From the NCBI GenBank assembly GCA_004195035.1, contig SGBD01000002.1, positions 62,001 to 126,000 of the forward strand: a DNA stretch of 64,000 nucleotides. The letters are read 5' to 3'. The notes below the pieces were generated by a model. It saw only the letters and a program-made list of their open reading frames with translations, did no database searches and had not been told where the DNA came from. Positions 48,629-63,488 of the stretch are shown here, piece by piece. Source of the DNA: Candidatus Acidulodesulfobacterium ferriphilum. GTDB lineage: Bacteria; SZUA-79; Acidulodesulfobacterales; Acidulodesulfobacteraceae. The translations under genes were made by a program, and so were the position numbers. Position 1 is the stretch's first letter; every line of letters begins with the position of its first letter.

Positions 48629-49714
48629 ATGGCAGAAGACCAGTTCGACAAAACAGAACCCGCGACCCCCAAGCGAATACAGGATGCCAGAAGCAAAGGG
48701 CAGGTGATGAAATCGAGGGAGGTAAATACCGCCTTTGTGCTTATAACTATTTTAATCTATTTATACTTTAACATTTCGTCAATCGGCAATATTATAACTT
48801 CCGAGATAGTTTATTTTTTATCCAACTCCTTTTATATAAATTTGAATTATGCGGGGATGCTAAAAATTTTATACCAACTCATTTATATCGTAATATTTGC
48901 CATCCTTCCGTTTATTTTAATCGTCTTTTTTGCATCTATCGTTTCCAATCTGTCCCAGGTCGGGCTGCTATTCACCTTAGAGCCGTTAATTCCGGATTTT
49001 GCAAGAATAGACCCTATATCCGGATTCAAGAGATTTTTCTCATATCAATCCGTCAACGAATTGTTTAAATCTGTTTTCAAATTTTTTGTTTTAGCCGTAG
49101 TAGCCTATTTTACATGTATTCCTTACATCAAAAAAATTTTTATTTTGCAATACACCGCGCCGTCTTACGACCTGCTTTTTACGGTTAAGCTTTTATATAA
49201 ACTCTTTTTTAATATTATATTCGTAATGATTATATTAAGCATTATAGATTTTTTCATACAGAGGCATCAATACAACAAAGGTTTAATGATGTCCAAGCAG
49301 GAGGTTAAGGATGAGGCAAAACAATATGAGGGGAATCAACAGATAAAGGGAAAAATTAGAAAAATGCAAAGAGAGATAGCGAGGAGGAAGATATTAAAGG
49401 AGGTTAAAAAAGCCCATGTCGTTATTACTAATCCGACGCACTTTGCGGTGGCCATTAAATATGACAACAAAAAATATAACGCCCCCATCGTTGTTGCAAA
49501 AGGGGCGGATAACTTAGCTTTTCTGATAAAAAAGATCGCGTCGGAAAACGATGTGCCTTTAGTCGAGAATAAATTTATAGCAAGAATGCTCTACGATATG
49601 TGCGAACCGGGGCAATTAATCCCCGAAAGTTTATATAAGGCCGTGGCAGAAATACTTGCGCATTTATATCTTACAAATAAAAAATTTAAAGAGATATGGG
49701 GTTTGATTAAATAA
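48629..49714 (+). CDS. flhB: Flagellar export switch protein FlhB
   Basis: A 361-residue FlhB. Four membrane segments are followed by a cytoplasmic domain with the autocleavage site N268-PTH-271 (VVITNPTHFAVAIKYD), needed for switching export from hook to filament substrates. KTEPATPKRIQDARSKGQVMKSREV is the N-terminal signature. The stop and the flhA start share a base (TAATG). Confidence 0.96.
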   Translation: MAEDQFDKTEPATPKRIQDARSKGQVMKSREVNTAFVLITILIYLYFNISSIGNIITSEIVYFLSNSFYINLNYAGMLKILYQLIYIVIFAILPFILIVFFASIVSNLSQVGLLFTLEPLIPDFARIDPISGFKRFFSYQSVNELFKSVFKFFVLAVVAYFTCIPYIKKIFILQYTAPSYDLLFTVKLLYKLFFNIIFVMIILSIIDFFIQRHQYNKGLMMSKQEVKDEAKQYEGNQQIKGKIRKMQREIARRKILKEVKKAHVVITNPTHFAVAIKYDNKKYNAPIVVAKGADNLAFLIKKIASENDVPLVENKFIARMLYDMCEPGQLIPESLYKAVAEILAHLYLTNKKFKEIWGLIK

Positions 49715-51816
49715 TGGCTGAACGGTCGGAAACAGGGACTTTTTCGAATAATTTTATTTTAAAAAACTCGGATATACTACTCGCCTTGCTTTTTGTGATG
49801 GTTATCGTTCTTATGGTTATTCCGATAACCACATGGATGCTCGATATATTTTTAACTTTTTCCATATCCTTTTCTATAATAATTTTATTAACTTCTATTT
49901 ATGTCTTAAGGCCGCTCGAGTTTTCGGTATTCCCCACAATCCTTTTGGTTGCGACTTTATTCAGGCTGTCGCTCGAAATAGCCGCCACCAGATTGATACT
50001 TTTGTATGGATATAAAGGCGCCGATGCCGCCGGAATAGTTATAGAATCTTTTGGAAAATTTGTCGTGGGCGGAAATTATGCAGTGGGAATAGTGATATTT
50101 ATTATCTTTATCGTAATCAATTTTATTGTTGTAACCAAAGGCGCAACCAGAGTAGCGGAGGTTTCGGCCAGATTTACATTAGATGCCTTGCCCGGCAAGC
50201 AGATGTCCATCGATGCCGAACTTAATTCGGGTTTTATAACCGAGGAAGAGGCAAGAAAAAAACGAACGGATTTGACGAAAGAGGTAGATTTTTACGGGTC
50301 TATGGACGGCGCAAGCAAGTTCGTCAGGGGAGATGTTATCGCCGCCATAATCATTATCGTCATAAACATCATAGGGGGTCTTTTAATCGGCATCTTCCAG
50401 CATCATCTATCCCTTTTTAAAGCCGCCTCTTATTATACTCTTCTTACCGTCGGCGAAGGGCTTGTTGTCCAAATTCCCGCTTTAATAGTTTCGACATCGA
50501 GCGGTATTATAATTACCAGAGCTACGAGGGAAAGCAATCTTTCGAAAGACTTTTCGTATCAATTTTTGTCTAATCCGAGGGCTTTATATACCGCAAGCGG
50601 CGTTCTTTTCTTTTTCGGCGTTATTCCGGGGCTTCCGCACTGGCCTTTTATTCTTTTTGCTGCCCTTGCCGCTTTAATAGCATATTTAATATCTAAAGAA
50701 ATGGGGAAAAAGAAGACCGAGTTAAGCAAAAAGGAGTTAGAAGATAGAAAGAGCATTCCCGAATCGCAAATTATAGAGAGCGTTCTGCAAGTCGATATTC
50801 TCGAACTCGAGGTCGGTTACGGCCTCATATCTTATGTCGATGCTTCAAGAAACGGAGAACTTTTGGAAAGAATTAAAGGCATTAGAAAACAGTTGGCGGG
50901 GGATTTAGGAATTATAGTTCCACCTATTCACATTAAAGACAATCTCAATTTAAAGCCGAACGAGTATCTGTTTCTGATTAAGGGCGCCCCCGTAGCAAAA
51001 TACGAAGTAATGCCTAATAAACTTCTCGCTATGAATCCTGGGAATGTAACAGAGAATATTCAGGGTATTGTTACAAATGAACCGGCGTTCAACCTTCCAG
51101 CGCTGTGGATAGATGAAAGCCTTAAGCAAAAGGCGCAGATGGCGGGCTGGACGGTTGTCGAAATACCCGCGATTATAGCAACTCATATAGTAGAGATAAT
51201 AAAGGCAAATGCGCCGGAACTTCTCACGAGGCAGGATGTTCAGAAACTTTTGGATATGCTTTCCTCTAAATATCCGAAGATAGTCGATGACCTTATCCCG
51301 AATACCCTTTCCTTAAGCACCGTTCAAACCGTTCTTGAAAATTTGCTTTCGGAGGGCGTCCCTATCAAAGATATGCTTACAATCGTGGAGACGCTTCATA
51401 ATTACGGTCAAAATATCAAAGACCCTGCCGCATTAACCGAATATGCCAGAGCCGCATTAAAAAGAACCATAACCAAAATGGCTATGGGAGCAGATAATAC
51501 TCTCAGGCCTTTAATACTGGGAAAGAATTTCGAATCGCTTATGATTAATGAATACAATAAAACAAAAGAGAAAGGAGGATACGCAGGGATCGACCAATCT
51601 TACTATAATAAAATAATTTCGGCCGTCAAAGAAGGGGTAAAAAAATCTGCCGAAACCGGCTTATCTCCCGTCGTATTAACCTCTCCCCAGATAAGATTAT
51701 TTTTAAAAAATATTTTAAACGAAATAGTTCCGGGGATAACGGTTATTTCATCCAATGAACTGTCGCCGAATTCCAAAATTAAACCACTGGGAAGTATAGA
51801 AATTTATGCAGATTAA
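49714..51816 (+). CDS. flhA: Flagellar export protein FlhA
   Basis: A 700-residue FlhA. The N-terminal half has eight predicted membrane segments including VFPTILLVATLFRLSLEIAATRLIL and the FHIPEP-like ARFTLDALPGKQMSIDAELNSGFITEEEARKKR; the C-terminal cytoplasmic half includes PALWIDESLKQKAQMAGWTVV and YARAALKRTITKMAMG. It provides the export gate ring and chaperone docking. It overlaps flhF by 11 nt. Confidence 0.97.
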   Translation: MAERSETGTFSNNFILKNSDILLALLFVMVIVLMVIPITTWMLDIFLTFSISFSIIILLTSIYVLRPLEFSVFPTILLVATLFRLSLEIAATRLILLYGYKGADAAGIVIESFGKFVVGGNYAVGIVIFIIFIVINFIVVTKGATRVAEVSARFTLDALPGKQMSIDAELNSGFITEEEARKKRTDLTKEVDFYGSMDGASKFVRGDVIAAIIIIVINIIGGLLIGIFQHHLSLFKAASYYTLLTVGEGLVVQIPALIVSTSSGIIITRATRESNLSKDFSYQFLSNPRALYTASGVLFFFGVIPGLPHWPFILFAALAALIAYLISKEMGKKKTELSKKELEDRKSIPESQIIESVLQVDILELEVGYGLISYVDASRNGELLERIKGIRKQLAGDLGIIVPPIHIKDNLNLKPNEYLFLIKGAPVAKYEVMPNKLLAMNPGNVTENIQGIVTNEPAFNLPALWIDESLKQKAQMAGWTVVEIPAIIATHIVEIIKANAPELLTRQDVQKLLDMLSSKYPKIVDDLIPNTLSLSTVQTVLENLLSEGVPIKDMLTIVETLHNYGQNIKDPAALTEYARAALKRTITKMAMGADNTLRPLILGKNFESLMINEYNKTKEKGGYAGIDQSYYNKIISAVKEGVKKSAETGLSPVVLTSPQIRLFLKNILNEIVPGITVISSNELSPNSKIKPLGSIEIYAD

Positions 51817-52993
51817 ACGATATGAAGTTTTAGATATGCAGGACGCGATAGAACTTATAAAAAGAGACCTCGGGGAAGATGCCGTTATTATTTCCACAAG
51901 GCAGGTTAGCAGTTCAAACGACCTGGGTTTTTTCGGAAAACCGTTTTTGGAAGTCGTAGCTGCGGCAGATTATAAAGATGAAGATCTAATACCTTCGAGG
52001 CAGAATAATAATTTTAATCAAAACCTTCTGAGCCCGTTATACGACGATATAAAATTTTTAAAAGACAACTTCGAAAGCATCGTGGAGGATAAGGTTTTAT
52101 ACATTTTAAATACAAAGTTTGAAGAGATTAAACAAAATATGGATGAAATTAAATTTAATTTAAATTTATTAAAAGACGAAAAGACAAAAGTCAGGGAAAA
52201 AGAAAACGATTTACTTATGTACCTCGATAATCTTTCTTTCGATAGAAAAATATCAGCCAAATTAATAGAAATATTTTTTAAAGATATTAAATTGACAAAC
52301 TTCAAGTCCGAAGAAAAAATTAACTATTTTAAAAAGTTTTTCAAAAAAATAATCGAGAAAAAGATAGAAAAGAAAAAGTTAACGCCTTTTATGGACAACA
52401 AAATAGTTATCGCCCTTGTCGGAAACAGCGGGGTGGGAAAAACCGCCACAGCCGCAAAGCTATGCGCTAAATTCCTGTTTGAAAAAAATATGCATTTATC
52501 CGTATGTTCGCTTGATTCATTAAAAATGGGCGGATATGAAACATTAAAAAATTATGCCAAAAAACTTAAAATAGATTTTGCGGCAATAAAAGATCCGGAA
52601 GACCTGAAAACATTTATTTCAGATTCTCCGTCCGATATTATAATAATCGATACATTTGCGGTTAACCACAACAGCGTTTTTCAGCTAAATAATCTGGTAA
52701 AATTTTTGGGTGCGTTCGATGGGAAAATTAAAGTGGAGCTTCTTTTGCCTGCTCAGCTTAAAAATGCGGACGCTATCAGGACTTACGAATCGTTCAGGAA
52801 TAAAGCCGGAGCGAATGGGGTTATTATCACAAAGACGGATGAATCTCATTGTCTCGGCAACCTTGCGGAAATATTTTTACTTACCGATTCAACGGTTGAT
52901 TTTATTACGAAGGGAGGGAATGTTCCCGAGGATATCGAAGAGGCAACCGTCCAAAATATTTATTCTTTATTTTTCCCTTTACCTCAATATTAA
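51806..52993 (+). CDS. flhF: FlhF, SRP-type GTPase with altered G3 motif
   Basis: A 395-residue FlhF that positions the flagellum. The N-terminal signature MQIKRYEVLDMQDAIELIKRDLGEDAVIIST is intact, followed by a coiled region and the NG domain. G1 is VGNSGVGKTATAAK (G206 to K212) and G4 is TKTDE (T342-D345), but G3, usually DTAGR, reads D282-TFAVN, and the G2 region CSLDSLKMGGYETL is also unlike the usual DTFRIGA.EQL. GTP hydrolysis may be slow or lost. It lies between flhA and flhG. Confidence 0.9.
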   Translation: MQIKRYEVLDMQDAIELIKRDLGEDAVIISTRQVSSSNDLGFFGKPFLEVVAAADYKDEDLIPSRQNNNFNQNLLSPLYDDIKFLKDNFESIVEDKVLYILNTKFEEIKQNMDEIKFNLNLLKDEKTKVREKENDLLMYLDNLSFDRKISAKLIEIFFKDIKLTNFKSEEKINYFKKFFKKIIEKKIEKKKLTPFMDNKIVIALVGNSGVGKTATAAKLCAKFLFEKNMHLSVCSLDSLKMGGYETLKNYAKKLKIDFAAIKDPEDLKTFISDSPSDIIIIDTFAVNHNSVFQLNNLVKFLGAFDGKIKVELLLPAQLKNADAIRTYESFRNKAGANGVIITKTDESHCLGNLAEIFLLTDSTVDFITKGGNVPEDIEEATVQNIYSLFFPLPQY

Positions 52994-53022
52994 AATTAAA
53001 AAAATTAAATAAAAAAAATATT

Positions 53023-53871
53023 ATGAAAAAGCAGGGGAATCAAAATAATTATACAAAAATTATTTCTATAACAAGCGGAAAGGGCGGGGTCGGTAAAACT
53101 AACATAGTTTGCAATCTTGCATACTGTTTTGCCTCTATGGGCAAAAAGGTAATGATAATGGATGCCGACCTGAGCCTCGGAAATGTTTCAGTAATTCTCG
53201 GTATTATTCCAAAATATAACATTTCTCAGGTAATTTACGGCGATAAACAGCTTAAGGATATCATAATCTCCGATTCTAACGGCGTTCTGGTTCTTCCTGC
53301 TTCATCGGGCATACCAGAGTTGTCCAATCTCTCAGAGCCGCAAAAAATTGCTTTAATGTCAAGGTTCGATGAATTTGCCGGAGATATGGAGGGTTCGGGA
53401 GAGCCTATAGACATTCTTTTAATAGATACCGGAGCGGGAATTTCGTCGAATGTTTTATATTTTAATCTTGCCGCAAGCGAAATATATGTTGTCGTGACCC
53501 CGGAACCTACATCGATAACTGATGCTTATGCGCTGATTAAGGTTTTAAGTTTGAAATACGGAGAAAAATATTTTCGGATTATAGTCAATAACGTTAAAAG
53601 CGAAAGGGAAGCTAAGGAGGTTTATAAACACTTAAGCCTTGTTTCCGATAAATTTCTTAATGTAACCTTAAATTATTTAGGACATGTTTTGAATGACGAG
53701 AATATTCCAAGGTCGGTTATTATGCAGAAACCGGCGTTAAGCCTTTTTCCAGATTCTAAATCGTCCGAATGTATTAAAAAATTGGCTTATAATATACTTT
53801 CTCAAAAAGATAATAAAATATCCAACGGCAATATCCAATTTTTTCTGAATAAACTTTTAAGGGCATTTTAA
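53023..53871 (+). CDS. flhG: FlhG (FleN), MinD/ParA-type ATPase
   Basis: A 282-residue ATPase controlling flagellar number together with FlhF. The deviant Walker A is SGKGGVGKTNIVCNLA, then IMDADLSLGNVSVILGI and ILLIDTGAGISSNVL. The C-terminus (IQFFLNKLLRAF) is an amphipathic helix of the MinD membrane-targeting type. The usual N-terminal DQAxxLR helix is missing: the ATPase core begins about 12 residues after the start, and no in-frame upstream start exists. It is followed 10 nt later by fliA. Confidence 0.92.
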   Translation: MKKQGNQNNYTKIISITSGKGGVGKTNIVCNLAYCFASMGKKVMIMDADLSLGNVSVILGIIPKYNISQVIYGDKQLKDIIISDSNGVLVLPASSGIPELSNLSEPQKIALMSRFDEFAGDMEGSGEPIDILLIDTGAGISSNVLYFNLAASEIYVVVTPEPTSITDAYALIKVLSLKYGEKYFRIIVNNVKSEREAKEVYKHLSLVSDKFLNVTLNYLGHVLNDENIPRSVIMQKPALSLFPDSKSSECIKKLAYNILSQKDNKISNGNIQFFLNKLLRAF

Positions 53872-53881
53872 TCTTTGTCAA

Positions 53882-54592
53882 ATGGAAAAAATAAATTTTA
53901 AATCAAAAAGGCTGATCGAAGAAAATTTTAACCTCGTAAACACGGTTGCAAACTTTATGATGATAAGATTTAACGGAATCATAAACAGAGATGACCTTGT
54001 GGAATTTGGCATAGGGGGACTGATAGATGCCGCTATTAAGTTCGATCCGTCAAAAAATGATAACTTTAGGGTATATGCGATAACGAGGATAAAAGGTTCC
54101 ATTTTAGACGGCATAAGAAAACTTGACTATATGCCGAGAAATGTCCGCGAGCTAGCGGGGAGGATAGAAAAGACATACTCCAAATTGGAACAAAAATTAG
54201 GAGAAATGCCCTCAGATGAAGAGGTGGCTCAGGAACTCGGTGTTAATTCGGAAGAATTTAGCGAAATGCTATATAAGATAAGAGGAGCATCATTTCTATC
54301 AGATAAAGATTTTATCGGTTTTGACAAAGGACGCGCCGAATCTATAGAAACAATGGAGAGCAAGGAACCGCAGGTTATAGACAACCTTTTGATAAATGAA
54401 AGAAAAAATATTTTAAAGACATACATCGATATGCTTAGCGAGGTTGAAAAAAATGTACTGATGATGTATTATTATGACGAATTAACCTTAAAAGAAATCG
54501 GAAGACTGCTGGATCTAACCGAATCCAGAATTTGCCAGATCCATTCTAAGGCAATAATAAAATTGAGATCAAAATTAAAATCATATGAATAA
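53882..54592 (+). CDS. fliA: RNA polymerase sigma-28 factor FliA
   Basis: A 236-residue sigma-70-family factor for late flagellar and chemotaxis genes. Region 2 (LVNTVANFMMIRFNGIINRDDLVEFGIGGLIDAAIKFDPSKNDNFRVYAITRIKGSILDGIRKLDYMPR) and region 4 (LLINERKNILKTYIDMLSEVEKNVLMMYYYDELTLKEIGRLLDLTESRICQIHSKAI) match FliA. Its ATG follows flhG by 10 nt and its stop overlaps the HEAT gene start by 8 nt. Being in a sigma-54 operon places it in the middle of the gene hierarchy. Confidence 0.95.
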   Translation: MEKINFKSKRLIEENFNLVNTVANFMMIRFNGIINRDDLVEFGIGGLIDAAIKFDPSKNDNFRVYAITRIKGSILDGIRKLDYMPRNVRELAGRIEKTYSKLEQKLGEMPSDEEVAQELGVNSEEFSEMLYKIRGASFLSDKDFIGFDKGRAESIETMESKEPQVIDNLLINERKNILKTYIDMLSEVEKNVLMMYYYDELTLKEIGRLLDLTESRICQIHSKAIIKLRSKLKSYE

Positions 54593-56597
54593 ACAAGATA
54601 AACAAAGGGATCTGCTTTTTGCGGATAATGTCGATGTCGTTAGAAATGCAATAGATAACATAGCAAAATACGGAACCATAAAAGATAAAAAACTCATAGT
54701 CGATTTATTGGGATCGAGCAGCCCGGGCATTGTTGAATTTGCCGAAAATACCATTATTAAACTGCAGGAAAAGGGGCTTATAAAAAAGCTGTTCGAAATT
54801 TCTGCCTCAAGCGGCAGCGGCATTAAAATCAGGTCTAATTCATTTGATGTTATAAAGCAAATTGCCATGAAGAACGGAAATTTTTTAACCGAATATTTTA
54901 ATAAAAGCAAAGGTAAATATAACAGGATAATTTCAGAGCTGATAAGATACGGCAATTTTATCCCTAACGATTATCCAAAAAGGATTTTGGTCAAGCTTTC
55001 AAAAGATAAAGACGAAATAACAAGGGCTAACGCGGTTGAATCGATAGGAATATTAAAACTTAAGCTTGACGGCGTACTGATAAAGGCGCTGGATGATACA
55101 TTCTTTGTTTCGTCATCGGCTATTTTTTCCATAGGGGAAATAAGATTAAAAAGAGCGTTTCCAAGATTGAAAGAGTTATTTTTAAAATCCCGCGACAGGG
55201 TTGTCAGAAATATAATAGTCGATTCTTTGGCGAAAATAGGCGGAAACGAAATATTAGATTTTTTGTTAAATCTTCTCGGTAAAAATAATAGATATACGAT
55301 AGATAAGATTTATATACTTAAAAGTTTATATAAAATATATACGGCGGATAATCGCAAAAAAAGCGGGACAAAAGAGTCGCTGCTCCAAAAAATATCCAAT
55401 TTAAATCTTAGAATTTCTATATCGTCTATAGAAGAGTATGAGGAAAAAGAGGCAATAGATTCTATCCTTTGTTATTTTTCTTTGTTGAATCATAAAAAGT
55501 CGGAAAAAATGTTTAAATTTTTATTTGAATATTATGTTAAAACCGAGAATATCGATGAATTAGAATATCTGTACATAAAAAATATTCTTAAAAAGATCGC
55601 AAGACCCAAGTACATAATGAATTACATAAAATCGTTAAAACCGTCGTCCGATTTTAATAAATATGATTTACTGATAAATGTTTTATCCGAGATTTCACCA
55701 AGGGATATAATAAATCTTTTAGATTTTTTTAAGGATAAAAAATTATTTTTAGAGGCAAAAATATCTTCTTTAATTTACGCGTGTTCGGTATTCTCGGATA
55801 AAAATTTTAGTTACAAAACCGCTTTTTACGATATTATTCTTTATTATTTAAGCGATGGAAACGGTAATGTTAGAAAATCCGCAATTAATTTATCGAGATG
55901 CTCGAAAAGCGGCATTTACATAGATAAACTTTTTACTTTTCTTCTTAAGGAAAATCTCCCTGATGTAACCTCTGCGTTTATAAATACCATATCTAATCTT
56001 TTAAGCTTTAAGCGGAATAAAAAATATTTTTATTTTTTTGCGGATAATCTGTCGTTAAAAAACGATAAAATAATAGAATATTCGTTAAAAATACTTGAAG
56101 AGGCGAAATTATCGCTAACCGATAATGATATTTCGGATTTATATTCTAAATTTGCTAATTTTAAATATGTTAAATCCATACCGTTAAAAAGACTGCTGGC
56201 GCGCGTTTTAAGAAAATACGACCTGGCAAAATATAAAGAAGCTATGTCTTTTTTACTTGACGAAAGCGATGAAGAGATTAAATTTAATTATCTGAATTCT
56301 CTTTTTATATCAGGGGTTAAGGACCTGAAACTATATTTGGATGTTCTTAGCTCCGCCGGAAATTTTTCGGATGAATTTAAATATAAAATAGTGGAATTAA
56401 TCGAAAAATTAGGCGACCCGAAGAGCTTTGACTTTCTTGTTTTTATGCTTAATAAAGAAAAGAGTAAAATGGTAAAAATCGCCATACTGAGCGCCATTCA
56501 TATTATCGATAAGGAAAAGGCGGCAAATATAATAAAAAAATATAATTCATCTAAAGATAAAGACTTAAGAAGCTATTCTTTAGAATTAATACAGTAA
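54585..56597 (+). CDS. HEAT-repeat protein of the flagellar operon
   Basis: A 670-residue soluble protein built from about 15 helical HEAT-like repeats, e.g. VRNAIDNIAKYGTIKDKKLIVDLLGSSSPGIVEFAENTIIKLQ and SIGEIRLKRAFPRLKELFLKSRDRVVRNIIVDSLAKIGG. No enzyme motif is recognised. The start overlaps fliA by 8 nt and cheR follows 37 nt after the stop, so it is cotranscribed with the sigma factor and chemotaxis genes. A scaffold for flagellum placement or signalling proteins is a reasonable guess; there is no direct evidence. Confidence 0.8.
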   Translation: MNKQDKQRDLLFADNVDVVRNAIDNIAKYGTIKDKKLIVDLLGSSSPGIVEFAENTIIKLQEKGLIKKLFEISASSGSGIKIRSNSFDVIKQIAMKNGNFLTEYFNKSKGKYNRIISELIRYGNFIPNDYPKRILVKLSKDKDEITRANAVESIGILKLKLDGVLIKALDDTFFVSSSAIFSIGEIRLKRAFPRLKELFLKSRDRVVRNIIVDSLAKIGGNEILDFLLNLLGKNNRYTIDKIYILKSLYKIYTADNRKKSGTKESLLQKISNLNLRISISSIEEYEEKEAIDSILCYFSLLNHKKSEKMFKFLFEYYVKTENIDELEYLYIKNILKKIARPKYIMNYIKSLKPSSDFNKYDLLINVLSEISPRDIINLLDFFKDKKLFLEAKISSLIYACSVFSDKNFSYKTAFYDIILYYLSDGNGNVRKSAINLSRCSKSGIYIDKLFTFLLKENLPDVTSAFINTISNLLSFKRNKKYFYFFADNLSLKNDKIIEYSLKILEEAKLSLTDNDISDLYSKFANFKYVKSIPLKRLLARVLRKYDLAKYKEAMSFLLDESDEEIKFNYLNSLFISGVKDLKLYLDVLSSAGNFSDEFKYKIVELIEKLGDPKSFDFLVFMLNKEKSKMVKIAILSAIHIIDKEKAANIIKKYNSSKDKDLRSYSLELIQ

Positions 56598-61975: not shown

Positions 61976-62785
61976 ATGAAGACCCCGTATATTTTTGCAA
62001 CCGCAAATCAAAAAGGGGGCGTAGGAAAAACAACAACGGCGATTACGCTGGGGAGTTCCTTATCGCTTTTCGGACACAGGGTGCTTTTGATAGATCTTGA
62101 CCCTCAGGCAAGCCTTACCAATCATTTAGCGGTTGAGCCGGAGAAACTTGAATATTCCGTCAGTAATGTTATAATTTCCGAATCTTTTCACCCAGACGAG
62201 GTGATTATAAACAAATACAGATTAAAAACAGGCGGATGCATCGATCTGATACCGTCAAATATAAACCTTGCAAGGATTGAAGCGGAGCTTTCGGTTTCAA
62301 AGGGCGGGGGGTTAAGACTTAAGGAAAGATTAAAGTTTTTACCGAATAATTACGATTACATAATAATAGATTCATCGCCTGCGTTAAGCGTTCTTCTTAT
62401 CAGCGCTATCGCGGCAAGCGATGAGGTTATTATTCCAGTTATGTCCGATTTTTTATCGGCAAGGGGCGTTGAATTATTACTCTCAACCATCGGCAAGATC
62501 GAAACGGCGATAAATATTAAATGTAATTATAAGCTTTTAATCACCATGTTTGATAGAAGGACAAATTCGTCATGGAAATCTTTGGACTATTTTAAAAATA
62601 AGTATCAAAGCTGCCATTTTAATAGTATAATAAATATAGATACAAGATTCAGGGATGCAAGCTTAATAAGAAAGCCTTTAACATATCTCGATGTTAATGC
62701 GAGGGGAACCTTAGATTATATTAATGTTGCGAAAGAGATAATAAACCGCCTTCATAACGGGATTAAGGGGGTAAACGATGAATGA
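61976..62785 (+). CDS. parC: ParA-family ATPase, ParC-like (chemotaxis array positioning)
   Basis: A 269-residue ParA/Soj-type ATPase: ANQKGGVGKTTTAITLGSSLS (deviant Walker A), LLIDLDPQASLTNHL and IIIDSSPALSVLLISAIAASDEVIIPV. Unlike FlhG it is a plain ParA type. It sits between cheW and a CheW-like protein, the gene order of parC-parP in Vibrio chemotaxis clusters, where ParC places receptor arrays at the pole. Function by analogy with Vibrio is inference. It overlaps the next gene by 8 nt. Confidence 0.85.
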   Translation: MKTPYIFATANQKGGVGKTTTAITLGSSLSLFGHRVLLIDLDPQASLTNHLAVEPEKLEYSVSNVIISESFHPDEVIINKYRLKTGGCIDLIPSNINLARIEAELSVSKGGGLRLKERLKFLPNNYDYIIIDSSPALSVLLISAIAASDEVIIPVMSDFLSARGVELLLSTIGKIETAINIKCNYKLLITMFDRRTNSSWKSLDYFKNKYQSCHFNSIINIDTRFRDASLIRKPLTYLDVNARGTLDYINVAKEIINRLHNGIKGVNDE

Positions 62786-63488
62786 GAGCGCAGAATTATA
62801 CGATATGAATGGTTTTAAATTCAAAGATTCGGATCTGGTGTCTTCATGGATAGGCAGTCTTTTAGATGAAGTTGAAAATCAGCAAAGCTCAAAAAATTCG
62901 GACTATCTAAAAGAACCCGCCCGAATTATTGCTTATCCTGTTGAAAGAATATTAACCCCTCGAAACGAAGCGGCAGTTGTTTTAGATCAGGGAGATTTTT
63001 ATTTAGAAGAGGTCAAAAAGCCGGAAATTTCTCCAAGTGTAAAAATAAATCCCGAAAAAGAGATGCCTTATTTTACCTTTACTTCGGGCAATTCTCTTTA
63101 CGGCATACCCGCCTTTCATATAAACGAAATAATAAAATACAAAGAACCCGTAAATATCCCTTCAAAAAAGATTGGACTGCTGGGACTGATTCCTTACAGG
63201 GCAAAGATAATACCCGTTTATAATTTTTCTTCATTAGTCCTACTTTCGGCGGATGTGAAAACTATTTGCAAATATATCGTCATTTGCGTCTATGAAGGCA
63301 AATTATTCGGCCTATGCATAGAAGATATTAAGAATATAATTAAGGTTAAAAATAAAAATCTTATTTCATCCGCCACATTTAGGTTTTGGGGTTCCAATAA
63401 AATATGTTCCGATGTTTTTGAAGGTGAAAGCGGAAAATTTTATTCGTCGGTTGACATAAAAAGCATTTATAATTATTTAAAATCATGA
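62778..63488 (+). CDS. parP: CheW-like protein with N-terminal extension, ParP-like
   Basis: A 236-residue protein. Residues about 105-230 form a CheW-like domain (PYFTFTSGNSLYGIPAFHINEIIKYKEPVNIP, GLIPYRAKIIPVYNFSSLV, IVICVYEGKLFGLCIEDIKNIIKV). The first 100 residues are polar and unlike CheW. Vibrio ParP has an N-terminal part that binds ParC and a CheW-like part that binds CheA and receptors; this architecture and position fit. It overlaps the ParA gene by 8 nt and the next gene by 4 nt. Confidence 0.78.
   Translation: MNESAELYDMNGFKFKDSDLVSSWIGSLLDEVENQQSSKNSDYLKEPARIIAYPVERILTPRNEAAVVLDQGDFYLEEVKKPEISPSVKINPEKEMPYFTFTSGNSLYGIPAFHINEIIKYKEPVNIPSKKIGLLGLIPYRAKIIPVYNFSSLVLLSADVKTICKYIVICVYEGKLFGLCIEDIKNIIKVKNKNLISSATFRFWGSNKICSDVFEGESGKFYSSVDIKSIYNYLKS

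Follow-up and report, generated by a model that had tools for sequence, protein, structure and literature searches.

The flhF-flhG locus and its gene neighbourhood

The window, that is, the whole stretch of 64,000 nucleotides analyzed here, stems from a 1.87 Mb genome that is 97% complete and belongs to a family (SZUA-79 / Ca. Acidulodesulfobacterales) whose records include isolate SZUA-79 and Candidatus Acididesulfobacter diazotrophicus. The order Ca. Acidulodesulfobacterales was described from acid mine drainage (PMC6776010). The region under study is a flagellar and chemotaxis gene cluster in which flhA, flhF, flhG and fliA follow one another in this order and are succeeded by chemotaxis genes, placing flhF where it would be expected:

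49714..51816, + strand: flhA open reading frame (FHIPEP match at G000:C2:111801-113771), overlapping the start of flhF in an operon context
51806..52993, + strand: flhF variant, open reading frame of 395 aa
53023..53871, + strand: flhG, open reading frame of 282 aa encoding a MinD-like ATPase without the DQAxxLR activator helix
53882..54592, + strand: fliA sigma factor gene, downstream of flhG (TIGR02479, 210 bits, above cut-off)

A 670-aa HEAT-repeat protein is encoded between fliA and cheR (54585-56597), and the chemotaxis cluster ends with a ParA-like ATPase gene overlapping one whose product bears a CheW domain at its C-terminus (61976-63488). We take this pair to resemble ParC/ParP of Vibrio, which positions chemotaxis arrays at the cell pole.

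FlhF retains its fold and GTP-binding motifs and has altered catalytic positions

The predicted product of flhF contains an SRP54-type GTPase domain (PF00448, 84 bits versus a cut-off of 22.7). With TIGR03499 it obtained 158.7 bits, just below the curated equivalog cut-off of 174.15, over a match spanning 1-284 of 286, and the FlhFs of the family score under this cut-off as well; the cut-off concerns the score and not the structure, and the protein is kept as an FlhF by its fold and gene order. Its predicted structure has a mean pLDDT of 77, with values of 80-92 for most of the G domain, and the closest structures in a fold search were those of FlhF (8r9r and 2px3). No further FlhF with normal motifs is encoded in the same genome, where the SRP GTPases found are Ffh, FtsY and the single FlhF of the window. 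Motifs were assigned with B. subtilis FlhF (2px0, identical in sequence to 3syn) as reference:

51806..51973, + strand: FlhF N-terminal B/FID domain, residues 1-56, the family's most conserved part
52418..52444, + strand: G1, VGNSGVGKT, residues 205-213, with the P-loop Lys/Thr kept and Pro replaced by Asn207
52514..52549, + strand: G2, DSLKMGGYETLK, residues 237-248, from the alignment to 2px0
52649..52672, + strand: G3, DTFAVNHN, residues 282-289, in place of DTAGR
52829..52846, + strand: G4, TKTDES, residues 342-347, intact, in the context ITKTDES

A sequence-only reading of this DNA had described G1 and G4 as kept, G3 as DTFAVN and the G2 area as altered, and each of these observations was reproduced. 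In G2, DTYRIAAVEQLK of B. subtilis aligns with DSLKMGGYETLK of the window FlhF, in which the arginine finger is replaced by K240 and the conserved Gln located nine residues past the G2 Asp by T246, whereas in G3 DTAGR has become DTFAV, with the Gly replaced by A285 and the Arg by V286. The P-loop Lys/Thr, the G2 and G3 Asp, G4 and the G5 Gly are kept in the window FlhF, and the family as a whole retains these residues, with G4 in the form Lys-x-Asp-Glu; on the strength of these motifs, the window FlhF would be expected to bind GTP.

The altered positions are shared by the family. K240, T/A246 and V286 are each found in 23 of 23 family FlhFs, none of which thus carries the DTxR arginine-finger motif, and G285 is lost in 16 of the 23 sequences, Ala being the residue in most members. 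The corresponding residues in non-family FlhFs (n=133) are R240 (124/133), Q246 (123/133), G285 (130/133) and R286 (90/133). The G2 Thr that coordinates Mg has given way to Ser, Ile, Phe, Tyr or Val, a change that weakens the case for GTP binding. G3 follows the pattern D[TS]F[AG]VNHN in 21/21 genomes, with the D, F, V, N, H and N invariant, and where DxxG would be canonical, most members, the one of the window included, have DTFA and one genus has DSFG. The arginine finger of SRP GTPases resides in the G2 DTxR motif, whose Thr touches the gamma-phosphate and Mg; Mg and the attacking water are coordinated by the G3 DxxG motif (PMC10910532). The change is confined to FlhF, since Ffh and FtsY of the same genome keep DTAGRL and FtsY also keeps DTFR...EQL. 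A catalytic role for the Gln at position 246, which we presume to be the equivalent of the catalytic Gln144 of Ffh, is suggested by its conservation among FlhFs and by this parallel.

FlhG retains its ATPase core and lacks the activator helix

The window FlhG presents the deviant Walker A motif KGGVGKT, the DTGAG motif and a C-terminal amphipathic segment, as befits a MinD-like ATPase, and among relatives of solved structure the best is Pseudomonas FleN. In the standard system, the DQAxxLR helix of FlhG uses its Gln to stimulate FlhF (PMC12826062). Approximately 10 residues precede the first beta-strand of the window FlhG, and the DQAxxLR helix is absent from 23/23 family FlhGs. A mis-set start codon or a helix encoded elsewhere could be ruled out, because the in-frame sequence upstream of flhG encodes no DQAxxLR and a search of the whole genome for sequence coding for it gave 0 matches on either strand. 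The lack of this helix, already asserted from the sequence alone, thus withstood closer inspection.

Both changes are fixed in the family and both genes are under selection

The family sample comprised 30 searched genomes, mostly MAGs, and a complete FlhF was found in exactly those 21 that encode a complete or nearly complete FlhA. In all 21 genomes with complete genes the FlhF and FlhG changes are both fixed, and the family forms one clade on a tree of 118 FlhF/FlhG pairs. Chance is excluded by this conservation in 21/21 genomes, and in the comparison with relatives that the sequence-only reading had proposed the two losses coincide, none of the close relatives having an intact G3 and helix. 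For nine close family pairs, dN/dS was about 0.03-0.14 in FlhF and 0.03-0.06 in FlhG, values that are rough given their derivation with NG86, and the FlhF open reading frame spans 395-401 aa in flagellated members. Across the 21 genomes, 68% of positions are invariant in the FlhF N-terminal domain versus 37% in the G domain. The ratio of N-terminal to G-domain change is 0.29 in family pairs as opposed to 0.96 in 60 other pairs, bearing in mind that the family pairs are non-independent and that a few other pairs are equally low. The flagellar genes fliC, fliD and flgE have been reported among the most expressed of Ca. Acidulodesulfobacterales (PMC6776010).

One family genome (G006) harbors, on a 6.7-kb contig (L193:3087-4297), a 129-aa FlhF that consists of the N-terminal domain only, its NG domain having been lost, directly followed by a well-conserved FlhG (74% identical) and by FliA. 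Neither FlhA nor flagellin was found in G006, and the three genes are either relics or include an FlhG with a non-flagellar role; for the same reason, this FlhF was rejected as a demonstration that flagella can do without the GTPase domain. Two further MAGs (G016 and G024; loci L044 and L045) each contain two FlhF copies from different family subclades and are probably mixed genomes.

Helix and Gln losses outside the family

Adjacent FlhF/FlhG pairs were also taken from a domain-wide sample, in which the non-family pairs comprise 17 helix-less and 92 helix-bearing cases under a strict or a loose rule; L112 and L115, which have long N-terminal extensions, are helix-bearing by the loose rule and doubtful. 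Q246 is lost in 1/92 helix-bearing versus 7/17 helix-less pairs (Fisher p = 5e-6 before correcting for relatedness), and G285 in 0/92 versus 2/17. At least one loss among R240, Q246 and G285 accompanies the absence of the helix in L136, L163, L186, L188, L189 and L180/L183, which belong to distant genomes and are candidates for separate cases of the same dismantling, while FlhF is intact at these sites in the helix-less L158, L169/L174, L172/L179 and L140. This asymmetry, with intact as well as altered FlhFs in helix-less lineages but hardly any Gln loss in helix-bearing pairs, suggests that helix loss came first. On the tree of 118 pairs the helix has been lost about ten times, and of the five Gln losses four map to branches without the helix (p of about 0.01 in a simple branch-length model that uses parsimony states on a tree whose deep forks are weakly supported). 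Strictly independent pairs (treekit) are few and not significant, and none runs in the opposite direction for Gln. A general link between helix loss and FlhF Gln loss hence appears likely, if not proven. The replacement of R by K at position 240 alone also occurs in helix-bearing lineages (L029, L161, L162, L176, L178), and K240 might therefore still function.

The FlhF/FlhG pair has been called consistently adjacent in the literature; some two dozen of the FlhF loci sampled, a part of them near contig ends, lack an FlhG in the 900 bases that follow downstream (L103, L104, L111, L132, L137, L143-L145, L148, L164 and L168 among them).

Comparison with known systems

The locus shares with B. subtilis (2px0/2px3, 3syn) and S. 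putrefaciens (8r9r) the order flhF-flhG in a flagellar cluster, an FlhF with an SRP-type NG fold, an N-terminal domain, G1, G4 and G5, and a MinD-like FlhG with a C-terminal amphipathic segment. It differs from both in that the family FlhF lacks the arginine finger, the conserved Gln and DTAGR, and the family FlhG lacks the DQAxxLR helix. The helix is likewise missing from FlhG/FleN of Pseudomonas (PMC12713375), but P. aeruginosa FlhF, unlike that of the family, keeps its catalytic Arg, R251, and an R251G variant loses activity (as cited in PMC6092412). In Vibrio alginolyticus, FlhF R334A shows no GTPase activity, even when FlhG is present, and supports a normal polar flagellum; G380A, which retains flagella, is polar to a greater degree (PMC6092412). 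R334A corresponds to K240 of the window FlhF, judged by distance from the P-loop with an offset of one residue due to an insertion, and G380A corresponds to A285; these are, however, single laboratory mutations, whereas the state of the family is natural and fixed together with FlhG helix loss. A G3 mutant of C. jejuni FlhF, by contrast, is impaired in flagella (PMC6282759), and this disagreement implies that the dispensability of GTPase activity depends on the species. Septin pseudoGTPases, whose GTPase is reported to have degenerated in evolution while an assembly role remains (PMC10731463), provide a parallel of concept only, from an unrelated eukaryotic family. Helix-less FleN in Pseudomonas (PMC12713375) and GTPase-dead FlhF mutants (PMC6092412) are hence already known; the papers searched, a collection with few subscription journals, yielded no natural lineage in which both losses are fixed.

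A probably dismantled GTPase switch

We interpret the locus as encoding a genuine FlhF/FlhG pair with a dismantled GTPase switch, and assign this reading a probability of roughly 0.6. FlhF would bind GTP and hydrolyze it very slowly or not at all, FlhG would no longer be able to stimulate it, and FlhF would act as a long-lived, GTP-bound anchor holding FliG/FliF through its N-terminal domain. FlhG, in turn, would operate separately as a MinD-like membrane ATPase limiting flagellar number or gene expression. The sequence losses, their fixation in the family, the selection on the two genes and the association seen elsewhere are observed; the biochemical behavior, the anchoring and the separate tasks of the two proteins are what we infer. 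In Shewanella, the N-terminal domain of FlhF binds FliG (PMC12826062), and FlhG-stimulated hydrolysis has been proposed to free FliG for completion of the C-ring (PMC12826062; PMC11236974). The joint loss on both sides of stimulated hydrolysis that the sequence-only reading suggested is upheld as a likely interpretation, the losses being fixed in all family members and present in nearly no other pairs sampled; its further suggestion of a different mode of flagellar placement finds no support.

An FlhF that still hydrolyzes GTP with a rebuilt site, using Lys240 as finger and with V286-N287-H288-N289 or another protein replacing the Gln/Arg and the helix, seems unlikely. Invariance of the new G3 motif across 21/21 genomes, which loss of function alone does not require, and the occurrence of K240 in helix-bearing FlhFs would favor it, but the three catalytic positions and the helix have been lost together, the G3 Gly is Ala in most members, and the Vibrio R334A protein is devoid of GTPase activity (PMC6092412).

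That another system places the flagellum, FlhF being vestigial, is more improbable still. The models used found no FimV/HubP-like or FipA-like protein, an absence that says little, as these proteins were described in gammaproteobacteria and may be too divergent for the models; the ParA and CheW-domain pair at 61976-63488 could act at the pole, and the G domain of FlhF evolves fast relative to its N-terminal segment. Against this stand the low dN/dS, the high conservation of the N-terminal domain, the kept GTP-binding motifs, the presence of FlhF with every complete FlhA, and the normal polar flagellum of the GTPase-dead Vibrio R334A mutant (PMC6092412). Plain decay, in which relaxed constraint erodes the GTPase domain and the losses are functionally meaningless, would fit the disappearance of the whole NG domain in G006, but the genome in question lacks FlhA and flagellin, which makes that FlhF a remnant in a non-flagellated organism, and the full-length reading frames of flagellated members, the strong purifying selection and the newly invariant G3 residues make it very improbable.

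In the dismantled-switch reading, an anchor without hydrolytic release means that the release of FliG for C-ring completion needs another explanation. More tentatively, and with the odds somewhat against it, the switch, regarded as conserved in bacteria, may have been abandoned as a unit several times, helix loss probably coming first and freeing the catalytic residues of FlhF, with the present deep-branching family having arrived at a permanently GTP-locked anchor and a new interface motif in G3.

The requirement for FlhF GTPase activity is unsettled, as mutants in different species disagree. The lineage offers a natural case of separation of function, in which both halves of the switch would be lost while both genes and an expressed flagellum are kept, and the family may thereby predict for which functions of FlhF it is enough to bind GTP and serve as an anchor. 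The FlhG helix together with the FlhF Gln would provide a simple sequence test for where the switch operates.
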